DNA of 64,000 bases, from positions 76,336,300 to 76,400,299 of the forward strand of contig CM049314.1 of the NCBI GenBank assembly GCA_026874595.1, in the 5' to 3' direction. The stretch is from Sipunculus nudus. Taxonomy: Eukaryota; Annelida; Sipuncula; Golfingiida; Sipunculidae. The notes beneath the pieces were generated by a model, which had not been told where the DNA came from, ran no database searches, and worked only from the letters and a program-made list of their open reading frames with translations. Below are positions 313-64,000 of this stretch, one piece after another (positions within the stretch are counted from its first letter, which is position 1; every line of letters begins with the position of its first letter). The position numbers were made by a program, and so were the translations under genes.

Positions 313-408
313 CATTGGACTGTAGCAGCGGCTCATTAACACAGACCCAGTGCAATTTGTGTAACACAGCAGGTCTTGGGGCTTACTATAACAGCGGCTC
401 TTGCAACA
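313..408 (+). CDS. Exon A1, 4-Cys module
   Basis: Acceptor ttttag, donor gtaagt, phase 1-1, 31 residues plus a split codon. C-x9-C-x2-C-x13-C, with AGLGAYY before the last Cys. The pair B1 shares only about half its residues but keeps QCNLC and AGLGA. Confidence 0.88.
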
Positions 409-3400
409 GTAAGTAAACCTTTCAAATTTCTTTAGATTAGTCCCTCCGCCGGGAGGGTATGCGTTCATCCCCGTTCGTGTGTGTTTCTGTCCATAACACA
501 TGCAGTCATGAACGGAACCTCATGAAACTACCAGGGCATTTCGGGAATGGCATACTCTTTGGCATATAGCTATCCAAATTAACACACGTTTGTTGAAATT
601 TAATGTAAAACACGTTTTTTTGTTTCTTTATTCGATATTCATATCAAATAGAAGTTACATGTCATTTAAAAAAAGAATCATTAATTTCTAATATATTAAA
701 ATTTATGCAGAAGGATAAATGATAGATAAGGAATAAAGAAAAACACCTGGACATATTTATATGTATTTTAAATTCATGTAATTGTTAATGCATACTTACC
801 GCCAGGTGTGAGATGTATCGTGTGCTTCATAAAAATGAAAGATGTAAATATATTATTTCAGACGTGAACTGTGCTGACAATAATGCCCTGACCACTCAGG
901 CCGCCTGTGAATCGTGCCGTAATCGCTACTGGGGCCTGGACTGTGACACTACACGTAAAGTATATTTTATATGACTGGTAATTGTGTCAGGTACTAGTTA
1001 TACTTAGACCCTATTAAACTCTTCTTTTTATAGTTTTGTATGCGCACGAAATATTTATAGCAATTAATGGTATAATATTTATTAACTTAAATAAATCCAC
1101 AAATAATTTCAGAGGTATTCAGTCAAGAGGTAATTTTATAGGCTACGATAATTGCATCAGTATAACATGTTTTGTTACCATTCGTAGAATGAGCTATACT
1201 AGTTGATAATACCTCATCAACGAATATAAAGAAACACCTTTGACGATTCAGCAAAAGTACGAAATTAAATATTTATATATATATATATTTTTCTGTATTA
1301 TATAAATATATAACTGTTAATGTTCAGTAACTTTGATTTCATTCAGTTTGTAAGACCGGAAACACATTTTGAGTTGCTCTCACTATTCACGTACAGATCT
1401 CGATTTTGAGCAGCGGTTTAAGGAAAGGAGAATTTAGCACATAATTTATGTATAAGAAGTGAATTTTTTTAAAAAACAGTTCCCATAACTGCCTCTACGC
1501 TTGTCAAGTCTTGGGGAAGCGTTACTGGGGACGCTTTGTGACATTTTCCTGCGTTAGTCGGTATTTCCTACGATATCTTTTTCTTCAGCCGCTGATCTCT
1601 GTACCGGGTCGCTTAACACACCGGAAAAATGCACTCAGTGTCTCTCCCATATGTGGTCATCAGGATCATGCGTCGGTAAGTTTTTTATAGTTCTCGTCCA
1701 CGATTACGTAAACCTTTAGTATGATAATCTTTGTATTTTAAGGCAGTGATTATGAATCTTGTATGTCTCTAAATGAGCACACCAGGGGCCTCCCACACAT
1801 CACTTTATAAATAAGCTCTAATGTCTCAGATTGGTGTCTGTTTTTTAAACAGTAAAATCTTAGAAGAAGTGTAATTATGAGATATAATTTTCCATTATTT
1901 TATTTTTTTTTGTATTAATGGACTATCTTAAAACTCAATGGTTTTATTTTGAGTAAATCAATAATAAAAGGTAGAAATAAAAAACCTCTGAAACGTAGAG
2001 TCAAAGAAAGAACAATATGCATAATCGATTTTAAACAATTTCCCCTCAGCGAGTGTTTTCTTAGTAGTGGCTGCCCCAATAGTATTTATAACTACCAGAA
2101 AAGGTAACAGTATGAAGGATGCCACAACCTTAACATCAGGTGCCTCTAAGCTCATATTTATAATGTTTTTTTTTTTAAATTGTCCTTCAAGACTATCTCT
2201 TCCGATGCTCATCTGTTTGAATCATGATTGAATGCGCCTAAGCATTATTGTCATATAACAATGTTGAATTGATTAAACAGCTTTGGACTGTACCTTTTTT
2301 GTTAGCGGTTGACTGTACGGATCCAAGTTTGGACGAGGCTTCCTGTAAGCGCTGCCGTCCATGGAAGTTCTGGAGCGGAACCGCCTGCCAAGGTAAGTAG
2401 CTTCGGGATCAAGATACATCGCTTATTTCTAATTAACCCTGTCCCCGATAGGGAAGGGAAGCCCCTGTCCCCGATAGGGAAGGGAAGCCCCTGTCCCCGA
2501 TAGGGAAGGGAAGCCCCTGTCCCCGATAGGGATGGGAAGCCCCTACGTATCACAAACTCTACCGTCCTATGTTGTTTATGTATTTCTATGTACTTTCTTG
2601 CACTTGCGTATGTCATTCGTATAATTTCGTACATTTTCGTATGTCATTCGTATAATTTCGTACATTTTCGTATGTCATTCGTATAATTTCGTACATTTTT
2701 GTATTTTTTCTGGATGAAGAAGCAGGTACCGATTAGTTCCTTTAATTTAAAACAATGACACCATCTAGAGTGGGAATATGGAAATAATAGGAATTGCAGG
2801 TTTTGAAAATAAAAGAATAATTTCTGCTCTTAATGCTGCGTATTTTCTGCTTCAGCCAATGACGCCGACTGTGCCAACCCGACAGCCATCACGGACCAGA
2901 ACAAGTGTACCGCCTGTTACCATGCCTACTGGACCGGCACAGCCTGTGCAAGTTAATAATTATTTCATATTATATAACTTGTAAAGTATATTTTATGTAT
3001 TTTTTCGTTTATTCTATTAGTATCACTATATATAATATATTTTGTGCGTTATTAATATTTGTTTGTGGGTTGCATGGATCTTTAGAGTTTTGGTTTAGTA
3101 ATATATCTCAACCCAAATATCAAAGTAACCGTCCCTATTTTGCCTCTATAGTAAATATATAATCTTTTTCTTTTATAGCATTTATCCTGCTTTATTTTAC
3201 TTATCACCTTTCCACCATGCTTGGGTCACTTTTTCTAGTATTGACTGTTCAAAAAATGGTAAAACCATTCTGCTTATATTTCCTCCTCAGCGGTGGACTG
3301 CGATCTTGCTGACAGCCAAGCAAAATGTGAGGCGTGTGACGGGTTCAAGTGGTCAAGCAGCAGCTGTACCCGTGAGTAGCGTATTATAGCAAAATAAACC

Positions 3401-6400
3401 ATCACAGAACACCTACACGGAGCATCAACAATCACAGAACACCTACACGGAGCATCAACAATCACAGAACACCTACACGGAGCATCAACAATCACAGAAC
3501 ACCTACACGGAGCGTCAACAATCACAGAACACCTACACGGAGCGTCAACAATCACAGAACACCTACACGGAGCATCAACAATCACAGAACACCTACACGG
3601 AGCATCAACAATCACAGAACACCTACACGGAGCATCAACAATCACAGAACACCTACACGGAGCATCAACAAACACAGAACACCTACACGGAGCATCAACA
3701 ATCACAGAACACCTACACGGAGCATCAACAATCACAGAACACCTACACGGAGCATCAACAAACACAGAACACCTACACGGAGCATCAACAATCACAGAAC
3801 ACCAACACGGAGCATCAACAATCACAGAACACCTACACGGAGCATCAACAAACACAGAACACCTTCACGGAGCATCAACAAACACAGAACACCTACACGG
3901 AGCATCAACAATCACAGAACACCTACACGGAGCATCAACAATCACAGAACTCCTACACGGAGCATCAACAATCACAGAACACCTACACGGAGCATCAACA
4001 AACACAGAACACCTACACGGAGCATAAACAATCACAGGACACCTACACGGAGCATCAACAAACACAGGACACCTACACGGAGCATCAACAATCACAGAAC
4101 ACCTACACGGAGCATCAACAATCACAGAACACCTACACGGAGCATCAACAATCACAGAACACCTACACGGAGCATCAACAATCACAGAACACCTTCACGG
4201 AGCATCAACAAACACAGAACACCTACACGGAGCATCAACAATCACAGAACACCTACACGGAGCATCAACAATCACAGAACTCCTACACGGAGCATCAACC
4301 ATCACAGAACACCTACACGGAGCATCAACAAACACAGAACACCTACACGGAGCATCAACAATCACAGAACACCTACACGGAGCATCAACAAACACAGAAC
4401 ACCTACACGGAGCATCAACAATCACAGAACGCCTACACGGAGCATCAACAATCACAGAACACCTACACGGAGCATCAACAATCACAGAACACCTACACGG
4501 AGCATCAACAAACACAGAACACCTACACGGAGCATCAACAATCACTGAACACCTACACGGAGCATCAGCAATCACAGAACATCTACACGGAGCATCAAAC
4601 TACAGACGCTACCTACCTTCCACAGTCTTATTCAGTATGGATGTCACTAGATGTAACAAGTCATTCTGAAAACCCCAAACTTAATTGAACCGTTCTTTAA
4701 TCTGTAGGTCCATTTTGTACAAAACTATCAGACAAGAATAGGTACAGGAGAGGTTAATATTCGAGTATAAAATAAGTATATGCAAATAATCGGGGGGGGG
4801 GGCGTATCATGCATGACTCGTACATACCAAGATTACAAACTTAGCCAAGCGACCATGTGGTCTTATTTAAGCATTCGTTTTCTTGCACAACATGAGTCTC
4901 AATTTGTTCCACTAAAGTATGACCATTGAAATTTTGCACAACCATAGCAAATTATTTTATAAATGTAATAAACTCAGAATCTGAATAAGCACTCTTTATT
5001 TTACAACATATTAGTTTAAATGATGAAGCTCGAGGTATCTCGTTCCGTGCAAACCGATTTATATTAAAAAGCTGATTATTGATTTTAGAGCCAAATAAAT
5101 TCTGAATAAAGTGTCACCAACAAGTCGAGGTTATCGACACATGAAAGACGCCGTGTCATCTAACCACAATAACTAGAAGCTTGTAAAATGTAAATGTAGG
5201 GTTTTCTCATGAAGTTTTATAGTAAATGTTAGGCTTTTACTCCCCTTTACTACATTGTCAAACTTTATCTAAATATTCATCTTTCAAAAATTAATCGCCA
5301 ATCTTTCATGGACACGTATCGGTAAAATATACTCTATTTATGTAAAACGACGCAACAGCGCAGCCAACTGAATACAATTCTGAGGACCGTTATCGAATAA
5401 GCATCTAGTATTTTTGCTTCTGATACTATTAAAGAATCGTTTCTATTGTGAACGGAAAGTATATCTTATTTCAGCGGTGGCATGCTTGGGCCAACAACTC
5501 TCCAGCCAGGATACCTGTGAATATTGTAGACACCATATATGGCACGGAACCTCCTGTTCAGGTAAGTGACGTCATCAAGAATGTTAAGTCAGCAGATATG
5601 TGACATCCTCAGGTAAGTTACGTCTCGCCTTGTATGAAAAAAGTGCTTGTGATTGAATGAATCTCCCGATTCCATCCCTTCGAAGTCACAAAGACAACAG
5701 GATAATAAGAATAATTTCTAATAGAGATGGTCAACTTGATATTTTAATTACAGATTATCCTGATTATCCTGCCCACCTGTTTTTTCATACGCCGGGCATA
5801 TGACGGTAGTATAATGGTATAGAGACCGTCCGTCCTTCCGTCCGTTAACTGTTAGTGTCGTTGGATAACTTACCGCGGCTTCGATGGATTTTCAGCACAC
5901 TCTCCATAACTACTTACCAATGTATTATCTCTCCCGAGTTCGATTATGGCCAAAATCCACATATATTAAATTAGGTCTATGGGTCACTGATCCACTCTGT
6001 TGTGTCGCCACGATAACTTTTGAAGAATATGATATGAAGGATTTTGATAAAACTTACCAGAAATGTAAATCAGTAAAATATCTCGCATAAGTTCGATTTC
6101 TAGCAAAATCCATGCATATTTAATGAGGTCGGAGGTCACTACACTTTGGATGCACAGTGGTGACTTAACAAAAATCCTATGGATTTTCATGAAACTCATT
6201 TTACATATTTATCAATGCAGTTCCTCATTATCAATTAAACTCTCAGCAGATTTCACGCATATTTAATGAGGTCAGAGGTCACAAGATACACGACGGGCGA
6301 ATTATGCACGTTTGCGATGTTCCTTTTAGTTTCTTTTATGGTAAGACATAATTTTTGGCACCAAAGGCAAAAAAAAAAAAAAAGTAAAGAAAATGCTTGA

Positions 6401-9177
6401 TTAATCATTGTGAAGTATTAACTTACTTAATGCGATTTTCCAATTCTTTAGCGACATCGTTCGGCGATCCAAAGGGAAAAGAAACAACAGAAAGCAGTAA
6501 CAACGTCATAATAGGTCGCGTGCAAAAGAAATACAGAAACAATGATCAAATGCTACCGACCCTCTTTTTTATAACGATGTTTTTTTCAACAATGCACGAG
6601 CTCTCACTGTTACGTCATTCACGAGTTGTTGATACGAAACAATGGCTACTCACTAGGGATATCTTAATATAAATATTCAAATATAAATATAGAATATAAA
6701 ATACATGCATATTACAGATTAACCATTTTAATAATTTTAACATTTGTTTGTATTAAATTCAAAGTTCACAATATCAGTTTGCGTTTAGTCATATGAATAG
6801 TAACAGCTACATCATGTCAATTATTTCAGAGTATTGGAATGCAAAATGAACGCAAACATAGAAACATGTTCATCGTCTGTACGTTTTTCTTTATGTCATA
6901 TTTGATAATTTATTAATTTTAGCTGCGGAATGTAGCAGCACTGGTCTCACACAAGCCCCGTGTAGTTCTTGCAAAGACATCAAGGTTTGGACAGGCAGCA
7001 CGTGCGCGGACTGTGAGTAAATCTGTAAAGACACTTGTTTTAAAGTTTTTGTTTCAGTTGAAGGCATTTTATAAAACGACATAAAGGTAAATTTAAATAC
7101 TAAATGTCTCACCCGGCCCATTTTAATCTTCAGTTTAATCACATAATACCTTTTGAATTCCTCCAATATGATTTTCATTCCTTGTGATTCTAAATTTCTC
7201 TGCCAGGTGTCTGGCGGAGGTTGGGATATCTATACTCTTCTTTGAAACTATGGCAACGGACACACAACTTACACCGGAACACAAGCTCTCATTGTACTTA
7301 CTCTTGGCCCTATGCCAGAAACAATGAAATCAAACCAACGAGAGCAGGTGTCGCATGTTTAAAATTTTTGCTGGATGCACAATGGTCTGATTACAATTCT
7401 TTGCTCTGTGCGCACCATAGTGTTCCTGCCCGGGTAACCCTTCCATAGAAAGCAGCGGTTACACAAAACGATGTCAGGTACCTCTGCGTCAGGAGCGTAG
7501 TTGAGGTCTTGAACTAAATATATATACAAGATATATAAATATACACACACATACATACATGTGTGTGTAGCTGTCTGTTACTTTATTCATGATAATTTTT
7601 ATTTTTTTTGTTTTAGTAACGACTGGACAGTGCTCCACGAGCGGCACGGCCACAACTTGCCCGGCGTGTCTCGGTAAAGTGTATGACGGGTCTTCGGCGT
7701 GCATAGGTAATGACCGGGCTTCAATTTTCATTTAAAACCAGATGGTATTTTCTTTTTTAGAAAAACAATCCGAGACGACCATAGGTTGATTACACCTATA
7801 ACTATCAATTAAAATTTAAATTGGTGTACGTAAGAATATATATATGTATTGCTGATCATTCTGTCCATGTTTAATAACGATTATTAAAAAAAGAAATAGA
7901 ATTCATGCATTTACGAGACATATATCATTAATATAGTTATATATGAAAATGTTTGTGAAATAACATATATATTAAACTATACTTATTTTACAAACTATCT
8001 TATACTCAGTTATGTATGTATATTGTTTTATATTTTTATATTATATTATATTTTATTATCACAAGTATTACCAACTTGACACATAATATTGGACATGACC
8101 ATACTTAGTATATTCAGCATGTTATACAATATATTATATTTTATTCATTATATGAGTGTATGTTATATTGTATTATCGCAGCTATTACCACAACGACAAC
8201 CCAGGCAACATGTGAAAATAACTATGGATATGTTAGTTTATCCATGACCTGCCGAAGTGAGTAACAAATCAAATGATATATTTTACTTAATCAATATTGT
8301 TACAAAAGCATAGAAGTTATGGTAAGAAGGTGACAACTTATATGGTTAAAGTGTGTATAGGAATTAAAATATTAAATCAGTTAGGTCATTGTTCCAGTTC
8401 TGATTAACTGTGAATCTATAATTAACAGCCCGCAGTTATAGAAACAGATATACATGTAGATAGATACACATGCTTAGTCACGTGGACATTTTGAACACCA
8501 TAAAATATTGTAGGGCCTATCGGGGAAACAAGCCCTATCGGTAGCACACAGGTCCAGCGTTCCACCACTTCGTCAATAAAACAAGCTTCAATGGCGAGAG
8601 AGATATTTCGGCCTTGATATGTTCTAAACTACACCCCTTTGAAATCGTTCTGACAACGGAACGAAGTGAATCAATTGATCATCCCAGGAGTCGCACTTGG
8701 GTAAACTAAGTGGCTGTATGTATTACGAAAATCACCCTTCTTCGGACCTCAAAGGCGGCATCCCGAACGAGCCCCCTTTTTTGCCAAGTAGACATCTTTC
8801 ACAGGTTAGAGTATAGTTTTACCGATCCGGGATGGGAACGCATGTCGGTGGTACACAAGTACAGCTTTTCAACATCTTCAGCTTCAATGGCGAAATATTC
8901 AGGTCCCCCTTTATATGCACCCCATAATAATATAACCATACACGCGTATCCTCAGACACACAATTCTATTCGGCCTCTCAGCAGAGGAAGGTCCGGAGTT
9001 TGTATTATGTATTTATGTGTGCTTTAGTAACCAGTTCTGTCTTCCCACACCAGGTGTCCTTACCGATAACATATGCAGTGGCGCCATCTCCAGCCAGGCG
9101 GCTTGTGGATGGTGTCCTGGCAGGTACTGGAATTCTGGGATCTGTACCAGTAAGTATTTTGGTAAATAGTGATATTA

Positions 9178-9212
<35 letters not shown>

Positions 9213-10252
9213 TATGTATGTTTTCAGTATAAGTTAATTCTAAACCAGGATCAGCTAAATAAAATATTTTGTTTTAAACTAAAAATGAAGAAAAAATGGA
9301 ACTTAGGTCCATAATTATTATTAACAATATATAGACATGTTCCCAATATATAGACAGTTTTACAATGAATGTCAACGGATGATTACATCGCATCGCTAAC
9401 TCGTGGGGCAGGGAGGATATATACCTCAGATTTCCCTGTATTACTCTGCTGTACATGTGCAACCAAGTAGGACGCCGGTACAAGAAAAATGAATATAGAA
9501 AGACAACGATCAATAGGAGAGAAATTACAGATGTAACTTCTGCATTATGTGCAATAACACAACATGCACCAGTAGAATGAGCCATCTGTTAATACTGAAC
9601 AGTGAATCTGTTAATACTATTTATAAGGAATCAACCATCATTAACATCTGTCTCAAAGTGACACTACCCGGTGGGAGGGTAGGAGGTATTTTTGTAATCT
9701 GACATTGATTTCGGTATACAGGCGGGTAACCTGAAATGATGCCAGGGGCTGTAGCTTGAGCCCTTAACAATAGGCGGGAGCTGGGGATTATCAATTTCGA
9801 ATCTTCTTATTTATATATAGCTTAACTTGGTCTCTCATGTATTTGAGAAGTATTTTCATTTGTCAAGCTGTCATTCTGTGATGTCGTGTTTTTTCCTTGA
9901 CACAGCTGTGACTTGCACAGCTGCGTCGACAGCTGCCGAGTGCAACGCCTGTTCCGGTAAATACTGGGATGGAGACGGCTGTGAAGGTTAGTGCGTCTCA
10001 GGTGTCCAGTATCAAGTTACGGTAAATTATCAAAACAAATGTCACCCCTCATTATTTTGTTTTACTCTTAATTCTGTGTCAGAATTGAATCAGGAGTTTT
10101 ATTTGTTATATGGAAAATATTGAGAACTCACACAGCCTATATGCGTCAATACTACTGTAGAAATACATATATCCAGAAAGGTAATGTTAATGATATATTC
10201 TACAGATCATACAATATTACATAAATGTTATATGATATCTATACACACACAA

Positions 10253-10330
<78 letters not shown>

Positions 10331-13300
10331 GTAACACCTTAATCTAAGACCCTTTAGTGTGCCGTTTAGTCATTGTTATTGCCTTCGCACGCCTAGAGTG
10401 GGGCTAAGGTATAGACTGTTCAGTGCTTAAACAGCCTGTCTGCCTGTATTGTCTGCACTGGTCTGGTGCTGTTCACATTTAAGGTCTACCTGGTTTGATA
10501 GGCCCGAATTTCTTCACTGAGAATAGGGGTAATTTATTTGCTTCCGATGCGTGGCCACGCAAACTGTTCAAGCGTATACGCACGTGTAGTGCGTCAAAAC
10601 ATGAAAACAGGGATGTGATGCATTGAAACACAGGAATTACGGATATGTTTACATACACATATATAATACAGATTGGAGAGGACTGAACAATCCCCGGAAC
10701 CATGTAAAATCGGCACGAGGGTCAACCTTAATTATCTCTTTAATTTCCTTTCAACCATTTAAAATACATTACAATATACATATTATCAAATTGAAATAGT
10801 CGATTAATTAATCAATCAAATTTATTTTTTACAAATAGGCCCCGATTATTATCCTGTTGATATATATATATACACCGTGCCATTTCCCCATATATCACAC
10901 ATACACACACAGCAGTAACATATGACAGGGAGAATTATAAACTTGATTTTTATATCATATTATGCTCATTGAATGTGTGATGAATCTCTTAACGGAGCTT
11001 GCTAAATATAAATATTTAACACAAATATGAACGTTCTCCCTCTTTCAGATGTCAGTGCACTGACGTGCTCAGGAACCGTATACACACAAGATGAATGCGA
11101 GTCTGGATGTTCAAAGAGCGACAACAGTGCCCGGGAATGGTCAAGCAACACAGGACAATGCATCGGTAAGGTGTATTTAATAAAATCTTTGTGTGGACGT
11201 AACCACATTTTTTAAATGATTTCTCAGCTTATCTATTAATAAGAACGCCTGCAAAATTCGATTTCGCTTTGTGAGTGCTAGTATATGCAAGTGGAAGCAC
11301 TGTCATTTTAGGAATTTGACATTATTTGGCGAAAGGTCTATCACATTGCCACCAATGAGACACCTTGTGTATCCACAGTGACATACCCGTACCCAACGAG
11401 CCCGGCAAAAAACACAGGCCTGTCCAAAGCGCGAAAGGATACTATGCTGTTACTCAAGTCCAGCGTACAAGTTATAAACTTTGGATACGATATGATACCA
11501 AGCAGGGTACGACAAGAAATCCTGGCCTATGGGCTTCGTATCTTAACGTATATGTACAAATACAATATCGATTCTGCGTCGTATCGAATCCGAATTTTCA
11601 TGATGTTAACGCTGGGTTTAAGTAGCTTTGTACTTATACATGCCTTGTCCTTCGTTATATCTTCTGTTGGTAGCGCATTAGGCTACTGTTTCATGACAAG
11701 ACAAGTAGCTGATCAGTATCAGATAAGGTTATCCCATCCCCTTTTGCACGAGATCCGTATAACGTACGGAAAAACACGATACGAATCTATGGTCTTTACG
11801 ATACGACGTTGCGATTGAAAAATATGAAATGGTATCGAATCGGAAATTCGTAACGTGTACGCTAGGCTTACACAACAAACAATATCCTTTATGCTATATG
11901 CTGAATTACGGATGTCAATGTAATAGCTGAACGTGAACACAAGACGCTCTCTCCCGTATTATTAAAACAAGAAAATCACTTGTGACATTCACTTCTCATC
12001 AAACGGCACATGACATGACGTCATTTTCTGTATCGCGTCATCGCGTTTCATACATGGCCGTAGGATTACAGACCATCGCAGTACATACTATGTATCAAAA
12101 CCTCTAAAGTGTTCTCCTGGGTTATTTATGTATTGATGTATTGAGACCTCACACTCCCGAACTTTCTTCAGAATTTCTATTGAAAAAGTTTTTAAAATTT
12201 ACTGCGGACAAAAAAAACACACATACACGTAACATCACACGCAGGATCGACAAAAGCCCTTACCCACTGCACCCGGTAGAGTTAATTATGCTATGCAGGT
12301 CTTGTGTAATTCGTGCTCTTTTCTGTGACGCAGGATTTATAAGTGACGTATATACAGAGTTTGCCTTTTTGTCTACATGTGTTACAATGAAACGCCTGCG
12401 GTTTGTTTATAGAAGACACTCTATAGAGCCATAGAACCAAGTTGTATATGTTAATATTTCATATTTTTATGCGTATGTATAGTTTATAATTGGTTGGTGC
12501 TCCTAGCACTCCACTTTAGTAATATTCGATGCCTCTGTAATAATTTTGTTAGTTAACGCTGAAGACTTTATTTTTCTGATTAATTTGAGTTTACTAAATA
12601 ACAAAATCAAGTGGAATATTAAATGTGTCAGGATTGATTAGTCAAGCCTTATACCACTGTGTACACTTTGGAAATTTTTTTTATTGTTCACGAACGCTTG
12701 TCAAGTATTGGATTTTCAAAGTATGAATAAATCAGGGTAAATATTTGACTTTAATTTTACCTTGATTACTTTAAGCTTGTGCCCAGCACTGTCTGACTTG
12801 TCACGTGGTGAACTCCGCTTCAACAGCGCCATCTGTCGAGTGTCTAACTTGTGAAGATGGCTACGTCCTTGACTCCGGTGCTTGCGTCTGTAAGTAACTG
12901 CAGTGTAATCTTTAAATACGCGCACCAGCCATCACAACCACCCCGTTAAGATGACCACTCTCTGTTAGTCCTTGTCAAATCTAACGTAAATTACCATAAA
13001 AATATTCCCACTTACAGGGCCATCCCGATATGACGACCACCGATGCCTTGGTAGACATCCGGTCTTAGAGAATGAACTTCTAGAGTTCAATAAAACCGTG
13101 ACCAACATTAATTTATTGACTTAGCAGGTCCAAATTGTCCGGCGTGTTCGTTCCGCATACTGAAACAATTTGTCAATATTATATCACGGTGTCTTCTTGA
13201 TTAATATCTTCGTCAATAAACATATAAGTTACATGCTAATGTAATAAACTTTATTAATTAATGATACAATGTGAAATATAATTTGTAAACTATTCACTTT

Positions 13301-14138
13301 ATCGCCGGGTTGGAAATAATTTGTGTACCATGACCCGCTAACTACCCGAAACGACTACATTGGCCGGTCCCTCAGATGGTCGTGTTAGAGAGATTTTACT
13401 TTGTTTATACAATACATTTACAGTTAATTGTGAGCTGACGAGCATTATCAATCTTAGATTAAAAGTAACGATTTTTCATCAAAGGCTACTCTTAATATGG
13501 TAAACTGCAAATCATTTTGTCGGTGCACACTGTAAAGTCCACACATTTACTGATGATGTATACTTTATGAGCTAACACTGGAAGTCCACACAGATCAGTC
13601 ATTGTAATATTAATTGTTGGTATACTAAAATTACTCATAAAAAGGAAACGCCGTTGATATAACTTTTTTTTGTTAATAATTAATATCTTAATATTTTTTA
13701 ACATAATATGTATATTGTACATAATATTTACATATTATTGTGCTTCTAGGGCGGAAAATCCTTAATATGCAGTTAAATTACAATATATGCTCTATTTTCT
13801 AAATATTAAATTATATATATTAATATTGAACTATATTCTAAATATTGAATTATTTGTATTAAATATTGAATTATGTATATTAAATAAATATATATATATA
13901 TTTGTATATATATTTATTCATGGGTTTAAATAAAAAGCGAAACTTGTGCAAAATATTTCTTTATTCATGGTCAAATGATACATGTAAGTACATATAAATC
14001 AAACCTACAACGCAATCACTGTGTTTCCATCCCAAAAAATCAAACTTCACTTTTTGAAGAGGGTACTCAGCGTGGTTAATTGGTCTTTTTTGTGCAGGTG
14101 ATCCTATTAGTGGAGTGATCAGGGGTTTTAAGGCAGGG

Positions 14139-14179
<41 letters not shown>

Positions 14180-15878
14180 AGAAGAAAACAGTTATTTCTA
14201 AAGTTGTATGATTTCAGCGTGTACCGCCGCCACACTTAACACCCAGATTAAATGTAACACCTGTAAACGGCCATGGAGCAGCGGAACGTGTGGAAGTAAG
14301 TACAGCATGTCATAGTCTCGTGTGCTTGACTTCATGTAACAAAATACAGTATCAAATTTTACGTTAGACTATACTGAAAGTATTCATTCCACGTAAAGGT
14401 TCTGAATGAGTGTGTTTTTTAATTTAATAATATATAAAAAATTAAATTAGGTTGTCTTTGATTAACTGGTAAATTTTCCTTATCTCTTGTTTTGGCGATC
14501 TCGAGAGTATGTTTTATCAGATATTAAATATCCCTGGAATTGCTGGAGTTATGAGCACCAGATTTTAAGGACATATTGATATGGTGATTGGTATTTCAGT
14601 ATAAGCTGCAGACAGTGCAGCTTAAAAGTAAAGCTTGGGTCTCTTGTCGAGAATGACAGACTACAGATATCAGTCTGATACTTAGCAGAACACAAATAGT
14701 TACCATAAGATTAAGAATGTTAAAAAGTAAAAATAAACAGACACCTTCCTGAACGCTTCTTGCAAATGCCATATAAGTTCATTTGTGACATTCATTGATG
14801 TGCTACGGGCCTTAGTATTGCGTCAGTTTCAGCTGAGTATCATGGTCCATGGGCCACTTTTGTGACAAATAGATAAACAAGACTATTTTAAGGTGTTGAA
14901 AACTGCACTCTAAATAACTCTTATGAAGTAGGCAGCCTTTGGCAGTGTGGGGGTATAGCACATGCTACATTCGCTACCAGTTAGTTCAGAATATATTCGT
15001 TTTGTTTAAGATCTAAGTATTGTCTGAAAATCATATAATGTTCATTTTTGTCAGAAAACGGGACATTGTTTTATCAATCTTGATACGTGTTATACTTGAC
15101 AACACGGTTTCAATAGAAAAGGGAATTTTCATTGACATATCAGTCTAACGTGATTTGTATACGAAATCACCCTCTCTCTCTCTCCCCACCCCACCCAACC
15201 CCACCCCAGAGAACCAACACACCTTACAGTTCACACATTGGTCAACAAATGCAGGTACTATTGTTGAAAGACGTCTGGTACTCAGGCCAACAGAACCAGG
15301 TTTAACGAGCTCAAGCCCTTCTTATTTGATCTGCTGGGAATAGCTTATTTACACCGATTTGTGCAAGCCTGGACGGACTGGTTGAGGACTCCTATTTTCT
15401 ATATTTTCTTATTTTTTTCCTATTGTCTCCCATATTTTCCAGCATTTAGATCATAGTCTCCTATATTTTCCTTTATTTTAATGTGCACATTTTTGTTTCT
15501 GACCCAATTATTATTATTCAATAATTAATGACATAAGAATCTATTTTATAAAAAAATCAGCTTTTTTTAAAGAACTCTCCTGTTAATAGATGCAGCTATG
15601 CAAGTTAAGCCATCTAAATAAATTAAACAGACATTTGGGATCTGCCTAGAGAATTGATGGACATGTTAAGCTACTGTGTAACCCATGATGGTACAGTGGA
15701 AATTCCTTTATGTTCCATTTTTTCTTTGCAGTAATTTCCTATAAACTCCTATATCTTTATCTGAAGTGATGCTATAAAAATCCTATGTTTTTTTTTTTGT
15801 GGGAGACTTGCTTGTGACCCGATGACTATTCAAGAAAAGGACCATCTCCAGGCATAGATGTATATCTAAGAACGGTAA

Positions 15879-15938
<60 letters not shown>

Positions 15939-18900
15939 CCAGATACAAGACCTTGTTCCTAACAGATCAGTTATTGTAAGTGACTTGTCTTTGTTAATTG
16001 TCTTTCGTTTACAGCATGCCCGGCTGATTGCGTTGACTGCAGCACTGCTGGGGCGTCCGGTTGTGATCAGTGCGTAACGGGCAAAATCTTCAACTCTGGA
16101 ACCCAAACATGCGAAGGTAAACACACACAATCTATACTATTCCGGTTTGATTAGAAGGATTGCGACGACACAAAATATCAGCAAATAAAGTAAATAACAC
16201 TGAATTGAATTTATTCGATTTTTTCTTAGAATTATGACATCTGGTTCCTGTATGAAGTTTATCTACCAAGACAGATAGTATGAGAGGTGTTTAAACAGAT
16301 TTTGCAATGGGCTTTAGTATAATTAAAACATACCTTAATATTCCATCTTTCACTTTATAGAGCTGCCCATATGTAAATTGGTAAATTAAAACTTCAATTA
16401 AAATTCCTGGAGTTAAACGTCTATCAAAATTATTGACCTGTTTAATCATTTCATGATTCCAAATTGTATACTAGTATGTTGGACAGGCTCAACTTTCGGA
16501 AACTGGTGGTATTAGATAAAACTAATTAAAACTCCAACCATTGGCCTGTCGGAACTAGTTCAGGGGTTCGCGACTCATTTACGTTTCTCTCAGCATGGGA
16601 TTACGTTATATTTACCATATTTGTAGTGACAAATGAAACTACTGACAGGTTTAGGTCGGTTGTTCATGATTATTTGCATGGGAGCACTTTATATTATCTA
16701 AATATGTTATTTTATGTCATGAATGTCAACTTGTTTTATTATGAGCCTCAAGCAGTTTGGGCGACGGGTCTTATTTGTGAAGGTGGTCCTATTAGTGGGG
16801 TTGTCTTAAGGCCCATATTATATTTTAAAATTACTGCGATCAGCAATATCGCATATACAGTATAACCCCTTTAATTCACCATTCGTTTTCTCACCAGCCT
16901 CAACCACGGAGGTCCCGTTGTGTTGTCTGCTAATTCACTTTAAGAAGTGCTCCTTATCCTTATCTTCAAAATGAACACTCCTGACATAGCGGTTAAGCAC
17001 TACAGCCGTTCCATATCTCCTCTGCTTTAACCGCTGCTTTATTTAGCAAGTATTTAGTTGTTCCAACACCAAGGCGGACACATGGCCAAGGATCAGACAA
17101 GCGAGAGCGGAGCTTAGTTGGTTTAAATACTTGGAGTTGGATGCACAATGCGATACCATGATCTTATTAGTCTGATCACAATTTTTTGCTCTGTCCCAGC
17201 CCTGGCTGTGAAACCAGTAGAACCTTGCTTTCAGAGCAGGGGGTAAATGCGTGTCATGAAACGACTGCAGTGTCTATTTAGAACCAAGGGAGTGTAACAA
17301 CAAAAGAAACCCGAATCCGCCATCTTCAGTTTACCTCAATTCATCTCAACTGAGGTGGTCCCGCTGTTTGCAAGAAAACGAGGGTTTACGGTAATTATTC
17401 TTAACCATTCTTTTACAGACTGTGCTCTGAACACCGAGGCCCGATGTGAGGGCTGTGGCGCGAATTATTTTCTATCATCGGATTCAAGCTGCAACGGTAA
17501 TTACATGACTGTCGAGGTTCAATTTCTAGGGTATAACATTCTTTGTAACCTTTTATCATTGGGTTTAATAACATGAACTGAGTGTGTCACGGAAATTTGG
17601 ATTTGACTGAATTATATTCTGCGTTTAAATAAAACACATGACATTTATCTCATTTTCTAATCCCTTATCACCTATAAATGTCAAAAAGATATTTCCCAAA
17701 TAATGGGATTATTTAAAAATATTTTACCAAACATTTCAGCCTATATGGCTGTTTCAGTATGGTAATCCTTTATAGAATTTATTTACAAACGTTTTTAGAG
17801 ACAAAAATGGAGATTATTATTATTTATACTAAAAAAAATAATAAAATTAATTATTATAATAAATGTAAATATCAGTGTTAATGAAAAGTAATGCAAAAAT
17901 GATGATGCATATTCATATAAACATGACGTAAAAAATTATTTGAATAAAATACAAACACAAAAAATGGGTTCTGTGGCTATGGCCTGCGACATGATACAAC
18001 CTATGACATGAAATGACCTGCGACATGATTTGACCAACATTTCCTACAACATGACATGGCCTACAAAATGATATGACCTAAAATGATATGACCTAAACAT
18101 GATACGACCTATAATAAACTGTTGTAGAATTACTTACATTTACTCCAGCTTGTCCATCAGGATGTTCCACCTGTTCCCATAGCAGCGGTACCACCACGTG
18201 CACAGCTTGCAACGAGAATTATTACCTGGAGAATGGAGGATGTACAAGTAAGTGTAAAGCACATTTTTCAGTGTAGTCGTGATGCCTCTTGATATGTAAC
18301 TAAATGTGAAAACAATTTAAGGATAAATTCACAAAACTAGGAAAACTATCGAACACTAACCCTTATTTTACCACCTTATAGTTAAAGCTTTCTGTTGAAT
18401 ATGACGATGTCAGCTCCCGACCAGTTCACTACTGTGTATATTTCGACCAAAGAGAGTTTCAGGTACTTTTGTTTAAATGGATAACAATTATTCCACTACA
18501 TAATTAAACAGATGAGTACAATGTTAAATACTCTCTCTGTCTTTCCTTATTTTGTTCATTAATCCTCTGTTTTCTCCCTTTATAGGTTGCCCGGGCTCCC
18601 TCGGCTCTATGAATACTCAAACTGTCTGCGACCAATGCGGTGGCACCACAACCAGGGGGGTGTACTTTGACTCCTCAGCAAACACATGCAACCGTAAGTG
18701 CCACCCTTTTGTTGAAAATATATGCTCCAGTATGTGTTTCGTAAAATAACCATAAGAATTTATAATTCGGTACATCAAGTATATCATCATAGTTCTTCAC
18801 TTTGTCATTTTATTTGGATGAGACACTGATGCTGCCTTTGGATCACAATAACGGTACAACTTGGTCTATTTTCAATGTATGGAGGAGATATCTGTTAAAA

Positions 18901-21900
18901 CGTTTGTACTATTATCATGCTTAGTCTGCATAAGTGACGTTCATTTCACCGATAATTTACAGAATGTATTGCAAACTGCGCCAGTTGTACTTCTGCGACA
19001 ACTTGCACCACCTGTTCTGGAGCGAGAGTGTTTGTCTCAAGCAGTACCTCTTGCGAAGGTAATAAAGAACTTTAATAATAAATATCAGTCTTGGCATGTA
19101 AATTTATGTCATATATTCTACACTGAATAAAAGTTTTTAATTAAAAAAAGCACCATATTTTACTTGAAAATAATTTTAAAAAATGAATTATAGGTCATAT
19201 TATACGGCATAAAGAATATATGTTATATCATAGAGTTGAACTAGAGACAATTGTTTAAATTGCCTTTTTAGCCTGTGTGAGAGTTAAGGGAAAGACTGAT
19301 TTCTTTGTTGTTTCCATCGCGCATCCCATTTGAACATTTTTTTTTCGGAATATTCAGATATGTCTCTTCCCGTTTGTCTGTTACAAAAATACCAACTATA
19401 TTTGCTTCACAGTTCAAGGTAACCTTTTCTACAGTTATGGTTCCATCACCAGTTAAAGGGAAATCATTCCTTCACCCCCATACTCAAACTTTATCCATTT
19501 GTTTGCGGTTGTCTTTTCTTTTTAACGTCATTACCTGAATCCCACACCTGTTCAACAGACTGTCCTGCAAATTGCCAGGCCTGCTCCAGCACCACTTCTT
19601 GCAGCCAGTGTGATGCAAATCGTTACTTTGAATCTGCCAGCAACACGTGCAAAGGTGAGGATCTCTTCATTAAACGCTACCGCTACCTAAAAAACCGTAA
19701 CTGGAGTCATCCATATTCTTCCTTATTCAAAGCCTTGGTCTGCAGAGTGTGATCTTTTATTTTTCAACACCTTTGGTGTGGATGGTTGTCTTCTTATTCT
19801 ATATTTTCTATCCGTTGGTTTACCAATGGAGCTTTGGTGGCAGATTGCGCCATTTTTATGTAGGTAGCTAAAACTTGCATTAGTTTTGTAATTTCGTTCC
19901 TGATTTAGGAAGGATATGGCACAATTTTGAAATATAAAACACACTATTCCGTTGAATACAAAATATTTCACTAAATCCAGAAAACATAGACCTGTCATTA
20001 AAAGCGTATTCAGGCATTTGTTAAGAAATCGAGAGTATGAGACCAAGGTGAAGATCCATATTTTCTAATTCGGTTTTCACTCTGGATGAAATTTATATAT
20101 GCTAATCAAGGAGGTGGTCTTCTGTAACATCAACGTTATAATCACCATTTATACATGTACATATGATTTCAACATACCGTTCGCATGGGCTTTACAGGTG
20201 TATGTGTGTATAAGCATTAAGAGGAATGTTCTTTTTAGAAAGACTGCATAATGTTTCTTATTCATTTCAGCTTGCACCACCATCGACGCTCAGTGCGCCA
20301 CCTGCCAGACTGCCGTCAGTACTTCCTGTGTTTGTAATTCAGGATATTTCTGGGATGCATCGGCAACTCCTCCACAGTGCACAGGTAGAAACGTTCACTT
20401 GTTTTCTCACTCAATAATATTTTTGAGATTTTGCATGTTTTTTTTCAGTTAAAGTTGAAAGTAAGAGTTAACCAAGACTCTTCTCAATGCCAAACAGCAA
20501 TATCAGTTAAAAACATTTGATACTGACATATTAATACAATTTATAAAGGTCAAGTTCGTAAGTACTGAACATATTTATTGAGCATTTATAACCGTAATGG
20601 CACATAATAATGCAATGCACTCAATAGTTAAACGATTGTTCTAATTTTCAAAACATCACATAATAAGCTGACTATTTCAACTTAACCTTTTAAACCTTTA
20701 AATTTAAAGGTATGATTGCTTCTTAATTTAAGGGGACATAACTCTGCGTAAACATTATTCAGTTTTCAGTTCTCGTCCCTAACGTTGGTGTTTGTTTCAG
20801 CCTGTGTCTCCGGTTGTGCCGTATGCACTGATGCAACAACCTGTCAACAATGCAAGTCAACCCACTGTTTTAATACAGCAGACAGTACCTGTGTCGGTGA
20901 GTATTTCATAGTTTCTATGCACCGGCCTTGTTTATTCCATCCATTGGCCTGATCATCTGCACGATCGTAAACGATTCCATGCTTGATTTACGATACATAG
21001 GTAGGTATATAGTGTATCAATAAATTTTTGTGTGTTTCATGTACAGCCTCCGCCAGCTGCCATACCTGCGCACAATCCACTGATGGTGTAGTTACATGTA
21101 GCTCCTGCAAGGCAGACTACACTCTGGAAGTGTGTGTTGGTATGTATCAAGACCAGACAGTGTATTTTTTATTGCAAGTAACTTGAACAATAGAATACCA
21201 TTATGTTTATAAGGGAAACGTTCATTACCTTCCTTATTTCAGTCTCAAGAGGCCCCAGAATTCTCGGTGAAAAACCTTTAATCCTGATAATAATAAAGTG
21301 TTTAAAATCCAATTTATTTTATTTATTATGCTTTGGAACTAAAGAATAACTCCCTTCTTCTCCTTTCACAATCATAATAAAGTATTATCGCATTTTTAGC
21401 TTGCACAGACAGCAACTGCCTTACTTGCAACGCGGACAAAGCTGTTTGTGAGACATGCAAAGCTGGATATTACGTCTCTGATGGAGCTTGCACCCGTAAG
21501 TATCACTTAGATGTGTGAAGTTATAAAATGTTTATCGCGATGGATTAACATCACACAGAACCGATGATAGCTCGTTCATTTGGAATTTCCGTATTCATGT
21601 AGAACTGTTCTTAATAATTACATTGATTAAAAGTGAGAAAAATATTCAAAAAAATATAATTTATATTTATTCAAATGTCCAGAATGTCCAGGAGGCGCTG
21701 AATGTTTAGCATGCACTGACGGGACTTCCTGTAGCAACTGCGGCGCCGGAAAATATTTTGATTCAGCAGCTTCAAGCTGTACCTGTAAGTATTATGTTCA
21801 TATGACGGTCATGGAAACTGAATACAAAATAAAGAACCTTTTTGTTATCAGAAACAATTTATTTCTTTAAATATAATGATAGAAGAACTTCCATTTGCTT

Positions 21901-24900
21901 CCGGTTATTAGCAAAAAGGCCATGCATTAAACTTATTCGATGACACTGTAGGCAAAGCGATGTTTAATCGAAAAGAAATAAAATCATATTTCTAGTGTTG
22001 CCCGTTCATGTTAAAGACATGAATAGACATGGCGATTATAATCTGTGGTAGGATCTTTGTTACAAGTGAATTGTATTAAGATATGTTCCCTGACAGCGTG
22101 CGGAGCTGGCTGCAGTGCCTGCTCTCGTGGTACAGCCTGCGACACTTGCGCAGCAACGAACATGCACAAAGTGCCAGGGACGAACACATGCAACAGTAAG
22201 TTACATCAAATCATGCTCATGATGTTCAACTTGTTTAAGAAGTCTTGCTTTACCCAAAATACAACAATCGGTGTATCACTGCATATTTCTGACTGTTGAA
22301 CTCTTCAGTTTTTTAGGAGGAGTTTTTTTATATGACTCAACCCCATAAGGACCAAGCTAAATTGCTAATTCATTATGACGTACAACGTATAAAGAATAAC
22401 CGATAGAACATGCCCAGTTTCCTCTAGATTTTCATCTCACGAGAATTTAGACATTTACATTATTTAGGGGATATGCAAACCTTAGTGATTCTTGTATCAC
22501 CGTTCGTACCTTTTCAGCAAAATGTACAGATAAAACGAGATGTTTCAGTGAGACCCCTTTAATGTCGATATATTTTATCAACGTGTCACACTAATTTCCT
22601 GATGTAGTGAGTTATATTGTAGACTGCCCTAGTCAATGTGCCCAATGTACCAGTGACACACAATGCAGCCTGTGTAACCCTGGATACGCATTAGACTCAA
22701 ACGGAGCCTGTGTTTGTATGTCTCATTACTTTCCCTACGTCTGCTTGACGGTGACTTCATATATAATTATCCATTAATTTTCAATATTCAGAGTAATGAA
22801 AACTGGTTTTTAATGGAGAAATTATCTATTAAGACCGCATAGTCTGTGTTCCGTGTTACTTTGCTGCTTCTATAAAACGATCTGTTGAGACCTCATAGTC
22901 TGTTTTCTTTGTTATTATGCTGTTACTATAAAACGCATGCACTCAGAGCGTTATGGTTGTTGTAATGAACCGAGGTAAAGATCCAAGAAAATAATTATGA
23001 TTTGAGAATTTATCAAATTTGTTATTATTAAATAATATTAAATACCTGATAATGTTAAATTTTATTTACAGACACCGTTTCTGTTTTGAGTGGTAAATGG
23101 ACAATAAATCACAGGTATGATTTTGATGAGGTTACATCTGTGTTAGTCATTTGTATAAACATGCTTTCAGCCTGTTTGTCCGGGTGCACTGTATGTTTGA
23201 ATTCCACGATCTGCTCAGACTGCGGCCCTGGAAAGCACCTCTCGGAAACCGGCGGGACACAGGCCTGCAATGGTAAGTTTTATCATTTTATAGTGCACCA
23301 GTGTCCATAATTACGGAAAGGCATCCAGACATTAAAAAAAAATATTATTAAATGTAAAAACTTTGAATGCATGTGGTGTGTGCCTAAAAATACTTGTGCT
23401 CTTCCATTAATTATCAATTCTAAAAAACATGCTTTTTTTGGTAAAAAGTTCATAAACAGCTCGACGCGATGGTGGTCAGGGCCGTTCTTTTTTTACGCTA
23501 TATGATTTAATTCTAGAACCACACGTATATTTTAGTGGAACACAAACTGTGACAAAATTTTATCAAATCGGTTGATGGGTCCTCTCAATTCTACAGCATG
23601 TCCAGCCGGATGCTCTGCCTGCTCAGCTGCTGCTGACGGTACCGTCACCTGCTCCGCCTGTAACGTTGGCTTCTACATGGATTCAACAAGTCTCTGCTCA
23701 TGTAGGTAAACCTATACTCCTTTTTACGACCTCCATTCCAGACTTGCAGCTTTATTGAATCAATATCACTAATAAATGAACAATAAAACAATAAACTTTT
23801 TAAACTTCCTATTGTGCACATTTATGAAATGGTTAAGGAGAGGCAAGAACCTATTTTTATGCCCTCGGCACAAAGTGGCCGGGGCTTATAGTTTTACCCA
23901 TGTCCGTCATTCCGTCATTCCGTCATTCCGAAATCAAACAGTTGTACGGACTTTTTTTCGCAATGCCTGCCCGATATTGGCCTGAATTTTGGTGTTTGGG
24001 CAGATAATGACCAGTTACAGATCGAGTTCGCGTTTCGTCCCGGTTGACCTACTTTTGACCGTTTTACGGCTCCTAAACTAAGAAAATTCCATGAAAAATA
24101 GAAATTTTCATGACAAATACACATGTACGGACTTTTTTTTCGCAATGCTTGCAGATATTGGCCTGATTTTTGGTGTGTGGGCAGAAAATGACCAGTTACA
24201 GATCGAGTTTGCGTTTCGTCCCGGTTGACCTTCTTTTGACCGTTTTACGGCTCCTAAACTTAGACAAATTCATGAAAAATAGAAATTTCATGACAAATAC
24301 ACATGTACAGCCGTTTTTAGCCCTCAGCTCATAGGCTGATGGGCTATTGTCGTCACCCAAGCTGTCCGTTTGTCCATCTGTCTGTCCGGTGTCTGTCCGT
24401 CCGTCCGTTCCGCATCTGTTAACTTTTACCATGTGAGCGGGATATCTCTAAAAGGATTCAGCGTTGGAATTTCATTTTATCAGTGAAGATGTATATCGAT
24501 AAAATCTCGGTCAAGTTCGAAGATGGGTGACCTTGACCCATTTTTATACATTTTAGAGCTGATTATAGAAAAACACTCAGACGTTTATATCTCAGGAACC
24601 ATTGTGTGGATTTTCACAAAACTTACTATGATCATTGGGACTGATGGTCTGTATGTGCTGCACAATTTTGGTGGCGCCACCTGCAATTTCTGATTTTTTA
24701 ATGAAATTTTATCGGATTTATTTCAATTTTGGCCTTTTGTGCAGGATATCTCCAAAGGTATTCAACACAGGAACTCCATTTCTTCAGTGCTATTGCATTA
24801 TATTTACAAACTCTTGGTCAAGTTCAAAGATGGGTGATATTGACCTACTTTTTAAGGTCACAGAGCTTTGTATAGAAAAAAACTTAGGAGCCTATTTCTC

Positions 24901-27836
24901 AGGAAGCATTTGGTGGATTGTTATAAAACATTTATATACCTCTCCAATTTAAATTTATAAATGATTATCAACTTTTGCTAATATTCTAGTTTCGCAATGC
25001 AATGCTTACAGATACTGGCCTAATGTTTGGTCTGTGGGCGCATAATGACCACTTACAGATCGAGTTCGCGTTTCGTCCCAGTTAACCTATTTTTCACCAT
25101 ATGACAGATCCTGAACATAGAAAATTTCATGAAAGACAGAAATTTTCATGAAAAATGCACATATATGAACTTTTTTTCACAATGCCTGCAGATACTGGCC
25201 TGATTTTTGGTGTGTTGCTTGATAATGACCCTTTACAGATCGAGTTTGCATTTTGCCTTTGTTGACCTACTTTTGACCATACAACACTTCCTGAACTTAA
25301 AAATTTTTACAAAATTTAACAAATGTTTCTAATTTGCCCCAGGCGGGGGCATTCGTGTCGTTCCGACACATCTAGTTTTCATTTTACATGGTAAAAACAA
25401 ATTAATCATAATCCATATGTTCAAATAATAATGAGAATGACATAATCCCTGCATGAATTATATATTGTTTCCTTTAAAGTGAAAGTGTTAAAGCTAGGCT
25501 TTATTTTTAATTTATTGCATTTAAGGTATGTCCCATTTATCATGGACCTTTCTTTGTGTATTTCCTAAAATGTTTTACTTTGTTCTGTATTTTTCTTTGG
25601 TAGCCTGCAGCAGTGTGACTGCTAATTGTGCCGCCTGTTCGAGTGCGAGTGTCTGCACCGCCTGCAGTGGAAACAACATGATCAATGACGTCGGAACCAC
25701 ATGCCTTCGTAAGTTATTCCGTGGTTTAACAGTCCTATCCCTGACCTCTAGCAATTGGTATATAATGTGTTTGAAACTTACCCATCAATAAAAGGAGAAT
25801 AGCATGGCGTGATGTTTCTCTTATAAAATAACATTCAAATGGCCTTTAACGTGCTCTTTTATTGCATTAAAACTAAATATGCACGTATATGCGTGTAAAA
25901 TGAGTATACACTAATGTTCTTGTATATTTCTGAACAATCAGAATTGCGTATATGCGTGTAAAATGAGTATATATTAATGTTCTTGTATATTCCTGAACAA
26001 TCAGAATTGCGTATATGTCTGTACAATGAGTATATACTAATGTTCTTGTATATTCATGAACAATCAGAATTGCGTACATGTCTATAAAATAAGTATTTAC
26101 TAATGTTCTTGTATATTCCTGAACAATCAGAATTGCGTATATGTCTGTAAGATGAGTATATACTAATGTTCTTGAATATTCCTGAACAATCAGAATTGCG
26201 TATATGTCTGTAAAATGAGAGAATACTAATGTTCTTGTATATTCCTGAACAATCAGAATTGCGTATATGTCTGTACAATGAGTATATACTAATGTTCTTG
26301 TATATTCCTGAACAATCAGAATTGCGTATATGTCTGTACAATGAGTATATACTAATGTTCTTGTATATTCCTGAACAATCAGAATTGCGTATACGTCTGT
26401 AAAATGAGTATATACAAATGTTCTTGTATATTCCTGAACAATCAGAATTGCGTGTATGCGTGTAAAATTTGTATATACTAATGTTCTTGTATATTCCTGA
26501 ACAATCTGAATTGCGTATATGCGTGTAAAATGAGTATATACTAATGTTCTTGTATATTCCTGAACAATCAGAATTGCGTATATGCGTGTGAAATTTGTAT
26601 ATACTGTTCTTGTATATTCCTGAACAATCTGAATTGCGTATATGCGTGTAAAATGAGTATATACTAATGTTCTTGTATATTCCTGAACAATCAGAATTGC
26701 GTATATGCGTGTAAAATTTGTATATACTAATGTTCTTGTATATTCCTGAACAATCTGAATTGCGTATATGCGTGTAAAATGAGTATATACTAATGTTCTT
26801 GTATATTCCTGAACAATCAAAATTGCGTATATGCGTGTAAAATTTGTATATACTAATGTTCTTGTATATTCCTGAACAATCTGAATTGCGTATATGCGTG
26901 TAAAATGAGTATATACTAATGTTCTTGTATATTCCTGAACAATCAGAATTGCGTATATGCGTGTAAAATATGTATATACTAATGTTCTTGTATATTCCTG
27001 AACAATCTGAATTGCGTATATGCGTGTAAAATGAGTATATACTAATGTTCTTGTATATTCCTGAACAATCAGAATTGCGTATATGCGTGTAAAATTTGTA
27101 TATACTAATGTTCTTGTATATTCCTGAACAATCTGAATTGCGTATATGCGTGTAAAATGAGTATATACTAATGTTCTTGTATTTTCCAGAACAATCAGAA
27201 TTGCGTATATGCGTGTAAAATGAGTACATACTAATGTTCTTGTATATTCTTGAACAATCAGAATCAGTGGTACGGTGATAAGCTTAATTTAGTAGTCCTC
27301 TCTGAAAAGGACGTTGGACAAAAAAGGCGCTGTCATATGCTTGAAAAGGTTATTGTCCACACACAAAAGGTGTACCTGTGGCGCTATTCTCTCTCCCTGT
27401 CACACACATTCCATAGTGTGTTTCTTCAGGTTCCATATACACCTTCATCTGGCCTTGAAAATACTTGGCATGAGTTTTACGCCTGATTTCCCTTTAAATC
27501 TTACTTATGAATTATACATTTTAATGTTGTATTTTTTTTATTCATTATAGTCGTGCAGCTTTTTTTTTCATTATATTGTAGTATAAATACTTACAAATTC
27601 TTTTCAATTTGCAGCTCTCAACATTCAAGGTTGTCTGTCATACTACGATCGTCCAAACTATTGTATCAATTGTGGCCAATTCTATACCCAAGACAAGAAT
27701 GGTACCACGTGCGAAAGTAAGAAACCATATGCCATCACTTGTGATGTTTGGTTAACTTTTTCTAGAATAAGTTTATTAATCTTGGTCGATGTTTTAGTAG
27801 ATCTAATGGTTGTCAGGCAGGACTGTGATGAGTTTA

Positions 27837-38597: not shown

Positions 38598-38723
38598 TTA
38601 AGCCAAGAAACGCTGCAGCGCAACCAGGACACACATGATTGCGCTACATGCGATGATGGACGAAGCGGCACTTCCGTAGGGTAGGCTGTTACACATGGCA
38701 GTTTCACAACATTGGCGGCATTC
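38598..38723 (-). CDS. Exon B35, LU C-terminus and GPI-type tail, stop
   Basis: Acceptor tttcag, phase 0, 41 residues and TAA. ECRQCCETAMCNSLPYGS nearly matches A35, then the tail differs (IIACSAIMCVLVALQ) and ends RFLA. The Arg in the tail is atypical for a GPI signal. Two residues shorter than A35. Confidence 0.94.
   Translation of the reverse strand, partial: ECRQCCETAMCNSLPYGSAASSIIACSAIMCVLVALQRFLA

Positions 38724-43735: not shown

Positions 43736-43778
<43 letters not shown>

Positions 43779-45538: not shown

Positions 45539-45582
<44 letters not shown>

Positions 45583-64000: not shown

Follow-up and report, generated by a model that had tools for sequence, protein, structure and literature searches.

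The 64,000-nucleotide stretch of the Sipunculus nudus genome analyzed here (C9:76336300-76400299; hereafter the window, with coordinates given in its own numbering unless a contig is named) carries two convergent paralogous genes, A on the forward strand and B on the reverse strand. Both encode a long series of cysteine-rich modules, one exon each, followed by what we assign to the LU type of domain and by a hydrophobic C-terminus. The cassette array is confirmed as real at the coordinates below and does not arise by chance. The initial annotation of this sequence, which mentioned over 30 cassettes, recognized the array but set the count too low, as each gene has 42 modules. We consider it fairly probable that the product is a GPI-anchored, fixed-length, disulfide-ladder surface rod with an LU foot, likely adhesive or ligand-presenting.

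Two genes of 46 coding exons

The window truncates both genes, with A beginning 11.8 kb to its left and B 5.6 kb to its right, and both were completed from 40 kb flanks on either side. Inside the window are 32 of the 42 modules of A, and 35 of B together with part of one more. Each gene has 46 coding exons, consisting of a signal-peptide exon, 42 one-exon Cys modules and three LU-type exons, spread over about 44.7 kb in A and 31.0 kb in B. The first exons of A and B are candidate signal exons, and just 5′ of the ATG both have similar short sequences that include an acceptor-like site. Splicing gives proteins of 1,462 aa (A) and 1,473 aa (B) with no internal stops, so that the assembly proposed at the outset succeeds and the array, LU domain and hydrophobic end described there on spliced frames stand in models open throughout, from signal exon to stop.

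Most of the cassettes were already recovered by an exon scan that imposed neither length nor phase, from 313 to 28262 (+) and from 63378 to 38635 (-), with some boundaries that differ from the final models. The final boundaries were selected on splice-site score, a length divisible by three being required, and seven scan candidates without the module pattern were removed by hand (four on the forward and three on the reverse strand, one of these three overlapping the last LU exon of gene B). The module exons are phase 1-1 in 42 of 42 cases per gene, which is not an independent test because the refined scan demanded a length divisible by three. A and B agree in codon and phase for 44 of their 45 introns. 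This agreement is largely, not wholly, independent because some seven boundaries were decided by inspecting the sequence in comparison with the second copy.

The signal exon of gene A (55 nt, + strand) lies left of the window at -11780..-11726, with modules 1-10 following between -10780 and -492. In the window, the final model places forward-strand modules 11-15 at 313-408, 862-954, 1589-1675, 2306-2392 and 2856-2951; modules 16-20 at 3291-3371, 5475-5561, 6923-7012, 7617-7706 and 8182-8256; modules 21-25 at 9054-9149, 9906-9986, 11049-11165, 12776-12889 and 14218-14295; modules 26-30 at 16015-16116, 17419-17496, 18149-18247, 18586-18693 and 18963-19058; modules 31-35 at 19559-19654, 20271-20384, 20801-20896, 21047-21139 and 21400-21495; modules 36-40 at 21683-21784, 22097-22195, 22623-22715, 23171-23272 and 23597-23701; and modules 41-42 at 25604-25708 and 27615-27716. 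The LU exons, also on the forward strand, are exon 1 (28165-28262; Cys 1-5, phase 1 to 0), exon 2 (31478-31579; three Cys, phase 0-0) and exon 3 (32798-32929), which holds C-x2-CC-x4-CN, a short spacer and the hydrophobic tail and ends in TAA at 32927-32929.

Gene B, on the reverse strand, has its signal exon right of the window at 69622-69568, modules 1-6 between 68748 and 64709, likewise to the right, and module 7 cut by the window end at 64008-63925. From there the final model places modules 8-12 at 63378-63289, 62921-62835, 62326-62243, 61941-61843 and 60823-60731; modules 13-17 at 60168-60082, 58198-58112, 57595-57497, 57210-57115 and 54695-54609; modules 18-22 at 54326-54231, 53666-53577, 53007-52936, 52692-52588 and 51932-51852; modules 23-27 at 51406-51290, 50199-50086, 49028-48951, 48445-48344 and 48030-47953; modules 28-32 at 47548-47450, 47066-46959, 46692-46597, 46005-45910 and 45384-45271; modules 33-37 at 44890-44795, 44646-44554, 44332-44237, 43971-43870 and 43496-43398; and modules 38-42 at 42928-42836, 42416-42315 (with a GC donor), 41494-41387, 41029-40925 and 40512-40411. 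The LU exons lie at 40004-39907, 39528-39427 and 38723-38598, the third again including the hydrophobic tail and ending in TAA at 38600-38598.

Two introns of gene A contain minisatellites. That between modules 16 and 17 has 40 copies of a 30-bp unit (3397-4598), open in several frames on both strands and without a Pfam match in the one frame searched. That between modules 41 and 42 has 22 copies of a 63-bp unit (25884-27264) and carries a reverse-strand open frame of 471 codons, for which an AtzG-like Pfam match (24.2 against a cut-off of 24) is likely a repeat artefact. The open frames of these minisatellites were rejected as coding evidence. Between LU exons 1 and 2 of gene A is a 246-codon open frame (29207-29947, -) with no Pfam match, which looks like a retroelement fragment. 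Some 21-37 kb to the left of the window are reverse-strand exons that, judged by eye, resemble sushi (CCP) and EGF-like domains and look like those of a neighboring extracellular gene.

The cysteine modules and their divergence

Each gene has 20 six-Cys, one seven-Cys, 19 four-Cys, one five-Cys and one two-Cys modules. Those with six Cys occupy positions 1-6, 8, 24, 26, 28, 30-32 and 35-41 and mostly follow the pattern C-x3-C-x2-C-x5 to 9-C-x2-C-x10 to 14-C. The four-Cys modules (positions 7, 9-23 except 20, 25, 27, 29 and 42) retain equivalents of the first and the last three of these Cys, and many have a YW-like pair; module 20 has two Cys. With genes A and B pooled, alignment A1 covers 34 of the 42 modules that have at least six Cys and alignment A2 covers 29 of the 38 four-Cys modules. 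Each of the two ectodomains contains 90 CxxC motifs and 222 Cys, all of which align between A and B; the surplus in the totals of 223 (A) and 224 (B) sits in the hydrophobic tails. As 222 is an even number, 111 disulfides are possible.

Module 33 has seven Cys, the extra one between its fifth and last, and module 34 has five, without the first. This pair (A 20801-21139, +; B 44890-44554, -) recurs in all four genes inspected, namely A, B and the paralogs on C3 and C11 described below, with identical Cys spacing in all four for module 33 and in three of the four for module 34. A seven-Cys module kept beside a five-Cys module in four of four genes suggests that the two are joined by one inter-module disulfide.

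For the fold, six-Cys module 31 of gene A was modeled from an alignment of 29 in-window modules with a pLDDT of 86.9. Foldseek against the PDB (E≤10) gave 31 matches, of which 27 come from R-spondin structures or complexes (TM 0.62-0.77), three are BCMA entries and one is a mite allergen; the E-values, 1.7-9.4 with none at E≤0.001, are not significant. The six-Cys module is predicted, from one modeled module of 42 with a query of 31 residues, to fold as an R-spondin/EGFR-type furin-like hairpin, and the Cys spacing of R-spondin Fu2 presumably fits it as well. The model of four-Cys module 15 of gene B is helical (pLDDT 85.6, from an alignment of 30 of the 34 in-window four-Cys modules) and has one unconvincing match among PDB structures (E=7.4). 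The second half of the four-Cys module (CxxC...) resembles that of the six-Cys module (hhalign, 61.5% over 16 columns). Searching the PDB with single sequences yielded no useful match.

The only repeat family that Pfam names for the modules is VSP (PF03302), above the cut-off in the C3 block (9.9e-17) and the C11 block (4e-9) and below it in A and B; an exon-by-exon search of the whole genome with PF03302 found three sub-threshold places, none in the family genes. Pfam named no other domain above the cut-off in A or B, where an Eclosion match (E 0.0027, below the cut-off) and RecR, MEKHLA and zinc-finger matches, all below the cut-off, were taken as chance. The furin-like label of the initial annotation is kept for the six-Cys modules on the predicted fold of one of them, where Pfam gives VSP only.

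Giardia VSPs have few introns and span the membrane, with a short, conserved end in the cytoplasm. They share with the present proteins their arrays of CxxC-rich repeats and differ from the 45 introns and LU/GPI-like end found here. R-spondins, which are secreted, are alike in the predicted fold of the six-Cys module, as are the furin-like repeats of the EGFR family, but unlike R-spondins the Sipunculus proteins have 42 modules, many with four Cys, followed by an LU-type domain and a GPI-like tail. R-spondins have been described as two Fu domains with a TSR, the Fu domains stacking as a ladder of β-hairpins and resembling EGFR-family Cys-rich regions (PMC3905715).

Module order is constant between A and B. 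The best match of a module is the one of the same index in 41 of 42 comparisons from A to B (the exception being module 18) and in 42 of 42 from B to A. Across the 1,459 codons compared, dN comes to 0.156 and dS to about 1.05 (dN/dS about 0.15), and selection is purifying. In modules 1-8 and 9-23 synonymous sites are saturated (pS about 0.75) while the proteins are still conserved; in modules 29-41 dS is 0.31. A long alignment that includes introns and extends beyond exon matches exists only between about 18.5-22.9 kb and 42.7-47.1 kb (18522-22868, + versus 47129-42692, -; modules 29-38), in blocks of 69-91% identity. Our reading is that the genes duplicated long ago and later underwent gene conversion in their 3′ part.

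These comparisons bear on the defense or recognition role suggested for the locus at first. In one reading of this kind, the product would be a defense or allorecognition receptor whose modules vary to recognize non-self. A long Cys-rich ectodomain with a GPI-like tail would suit such a receptor, as would tail-to-tail copies with gene conversion and the fact that the C3 and C11 blocks pass the cut-off for a variable surface protein family of Giardia. However, the 42 modules keep one number and order, with same-index best matches, in copies whose synonymous divergence is saturated, and selection is purifying, so the arrays do not bear the signature of a fast-evolving recognition array. We regard this role as unlikely, though it keeps some weight; a part in defense is possible, with nothing to favor it over adhesion or barrier roles. 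The predicted fold also invites comparison with signaling proteins built of furin-like repeats, such as a membrane-tethered Wnt or growth-factor co-receptor of R-spondin/EGFR-like kind. This is quite unlikely, as the match of the six-Cys module to R-spondin Fu domains concerns the fold of a 31-residue repeat, which carries no function, the repeat number far exceeds the two of R-spondin, and the Pfam search of A and B added no other domain above the cut-off.

The LU-type domain and paralogs on other chromosomes

Searching the genome (1,426,538,692 bases in 153 contigs) with the six-Cys block returned C3:12.74-12.81 Mb and C11:53.92 Mb in addition to both window genes, whereas the four-Cys block returned the window genes only; one scan of viral contigs gave no match. 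The family thus has at least four genes, a lower bound because the genome searches report best candidates only. In the C3 gene, 16 of 17 detected modules chain onto positions between 24 and 41, one exon holding modules 34 and 35, and three LU exons follow 6.8 kb downstream of module 41; module 42 was looked for in this gene and not found. The fetched part of the C11 gene covers positions 30-42 and three LU exons, with an intron of 152 bp between module 42 and LU exon 1. No module-order shuffle matched the observed score of the gapped chain in either gene (0 of 500 for each). For C11, an ordering with a fixed start at module 31 was equaled by 250 of 10000 permutations, the register being fixed later by the gapped chain, and a rescan found the exon for the chain's gap at module 38 between its neighbors. 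Over modules 33-41, the C3 and C11 genes have 21-27% non-Cys identity.

Five further one-exon six-Cys modules of similar type form another array at C6:20.187-20.214 Mb. A single module at C3:12.505 Mb, with module 4 as its best match, is perhaps from the N-terminal part of the C3 gene. Open frames at C11:38.0550-38.0561 Mb with several Cys repeats each, apparently GCC2/GCC3-like, were rejected as a family relative (C11:38.055 Mb), being of another repeat type; the GCC2/GCC3 ephrin-receptor-like repeats are alike in being Cys-rich and tandem, but an open frame there holds several repeats, their Cys pattern is different, and they fall outside the A/B family.

In all four genes, the exons after the modules encode a domain of 78-85 residues with 12 Cys (10 + 2, the two extra ones being judged by eye) that ends in C-x2-CC-x4-CN. 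The LU domain is described, in PMC6600238, as 60-90 residues with 10 Cys in a consensus order and an Asn after the tenth, and this Cys/Asn consensus is matched by pattern in four of four genes. The window contains exactly two occurrences of CC-x4-CN, one per gene, with 0.38 expected; the motif alone is weak evidence because six of 100 shuffles reach at least two, and its context carries the case. Profile searches were mostly silent: PF00021 gave no match genome-wide, the same profile being silent in every control genome as well, Pfam found no LU family in the A, B and C11 proteins, and PF17064 (QVR) appeared below the cut-off (E=0.011) in the C3 gene only, one of the four genes. A PDB profile search with the domain (E≤10) gave three matches, a solute carrier (0.27), taken as chance, LYPD1 (1.9) and LYPD6B (8.5). 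An hhalign comparison gave a probability of 28%, and the LYPD1 score exceeds 1000 of 1000 full shuffles, while eight of 1000 Cys-fixed shuffles score as well.

LYPD1 and LYPD6B have in common with the Sipunculus domain the Cys pattern with CC-x4-CN, the Asn after the last Cys and a hydrophobic tail, and their alignments also show a similarly placed additional pair of Cys, which lies after the seventh Cys and before CC. They differ in that the domain here follows 42 foreign modules, and the likeness in sequence is not significant by itself. The exon layout also departs from the typical one, described in PMC6600238 as two exons flanked by phase-1 introns; A and B have three LU exons entered in phase 1 with internal phase-0 introns, the usual layout being given there as typical and not as defining. 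From pattern, position, tail and weak homology taken together, we assign the C-terminal domain to the LU type.

The tails, by simple hydropathy, are 31-35 residues from the last CN in all four genes, with two to five residues beyond the most hydrophobic stretch. The tail of gene B contains an Arg, and that of one of the C3/C11 genes (labeled D) is only mildly hydrophobic. The hydrophobic C-terminus noted at first is present in four of four genes, and a GPI anchor is predicted for it from this simple hydropathy only.

LU proteins are mostly single-domain (PMC6600238), and the LU exons might on that ground constitute a small gene of their own, encoding a GPI-anchored Ly6-like protein and lying downstream of a module gene. 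We consider this very unlikely and have discarded it, since in four of four genes, on three chromosomes, the LU exons come after the last module detected, the phase-1 junction preserves the frame in A and B, and in the C11 gene a mere 152 bp would have to separate the two. The C3 and C11 genes share these LU exons and this tail at their 3′ ends, which makes it very probable that the LU exons are part of the module genes, and the joining of a long series of four-Cys and six-Cys modules to an LU/hydrophobic end, proposed from the window alone, now recurs as the C-terminal layout of four genes on three chromosomes. Part of A and B is nearly alike, introns included, but there is next to no chance that they are an assembly artefact, alleles or dead duplicates, as synonymous sites are saturated elsewhere, 46 of 46 exons are open in both copies and selection is purifying.

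A proposed surface rod

The reading that we favor, a GPI-anchored disulfide-ladder rod, would proceed from a secreted precursor that loses its signal peptide, after which some 1,410-1,425 residues would fold as 42 consecutive disulfide modules. The six-Cys modules would be furin-like hairpins, the central, mostly four-Cys block would be a related but different small module, and the 12-Cys LU-type three-finger domain would sit at the membrane-proximal end, where the hydrophobic tail would be swapped for a GPI anchor. A stiff disulfide ladder of fixed length would then stand off the membrane, its length presumably tens of nanometers, a rough guess from the dimensions of EGFR-type repeats. The six-Cys stalk and LU foot would hold the N-terminal and four-Cys modules away from the membrane, and the far end may bind a ligand or another cell. 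The constancy of module number, order and Cys, together with the seven-Cys/five-Cys pair, points to a structure whose length is fixed and whose stiffness is set by disulfides, one of them probably linking two modules; we infer the rod shape and the adhesion or ligand role.

Among the papers listed by searches of a limited literature collection, judged by titles and the starts of abstracts, none presents a named family with this layout. The description of the architecture as undescribed agrees with the literature searched, without being proved by it. The kinds of domain are known; their combination and scale appear new. We lean slightly towards an ancient, unnamed family of giant GPI-anchored Fu-LU rods with at least four genes, a fixed module order and a conserved inter-module disulfide, in which the LU domain would be a mobile, exon-shuffled module joined through a phase-1 intron to about 42 foreign repeats.

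At least four paralogs carry an LU-type domain behind a long array of modules, and in the two complete genes, A and B, a phase-1 intron makes the connection. The pair lends itself to a clean test of gene conversion and of conservation from exon to exon. As a natural example of a single-chain disulfide ladder that is very long and constant in length, the proposed rod would bear on how cells set the spacing at their surfaces.
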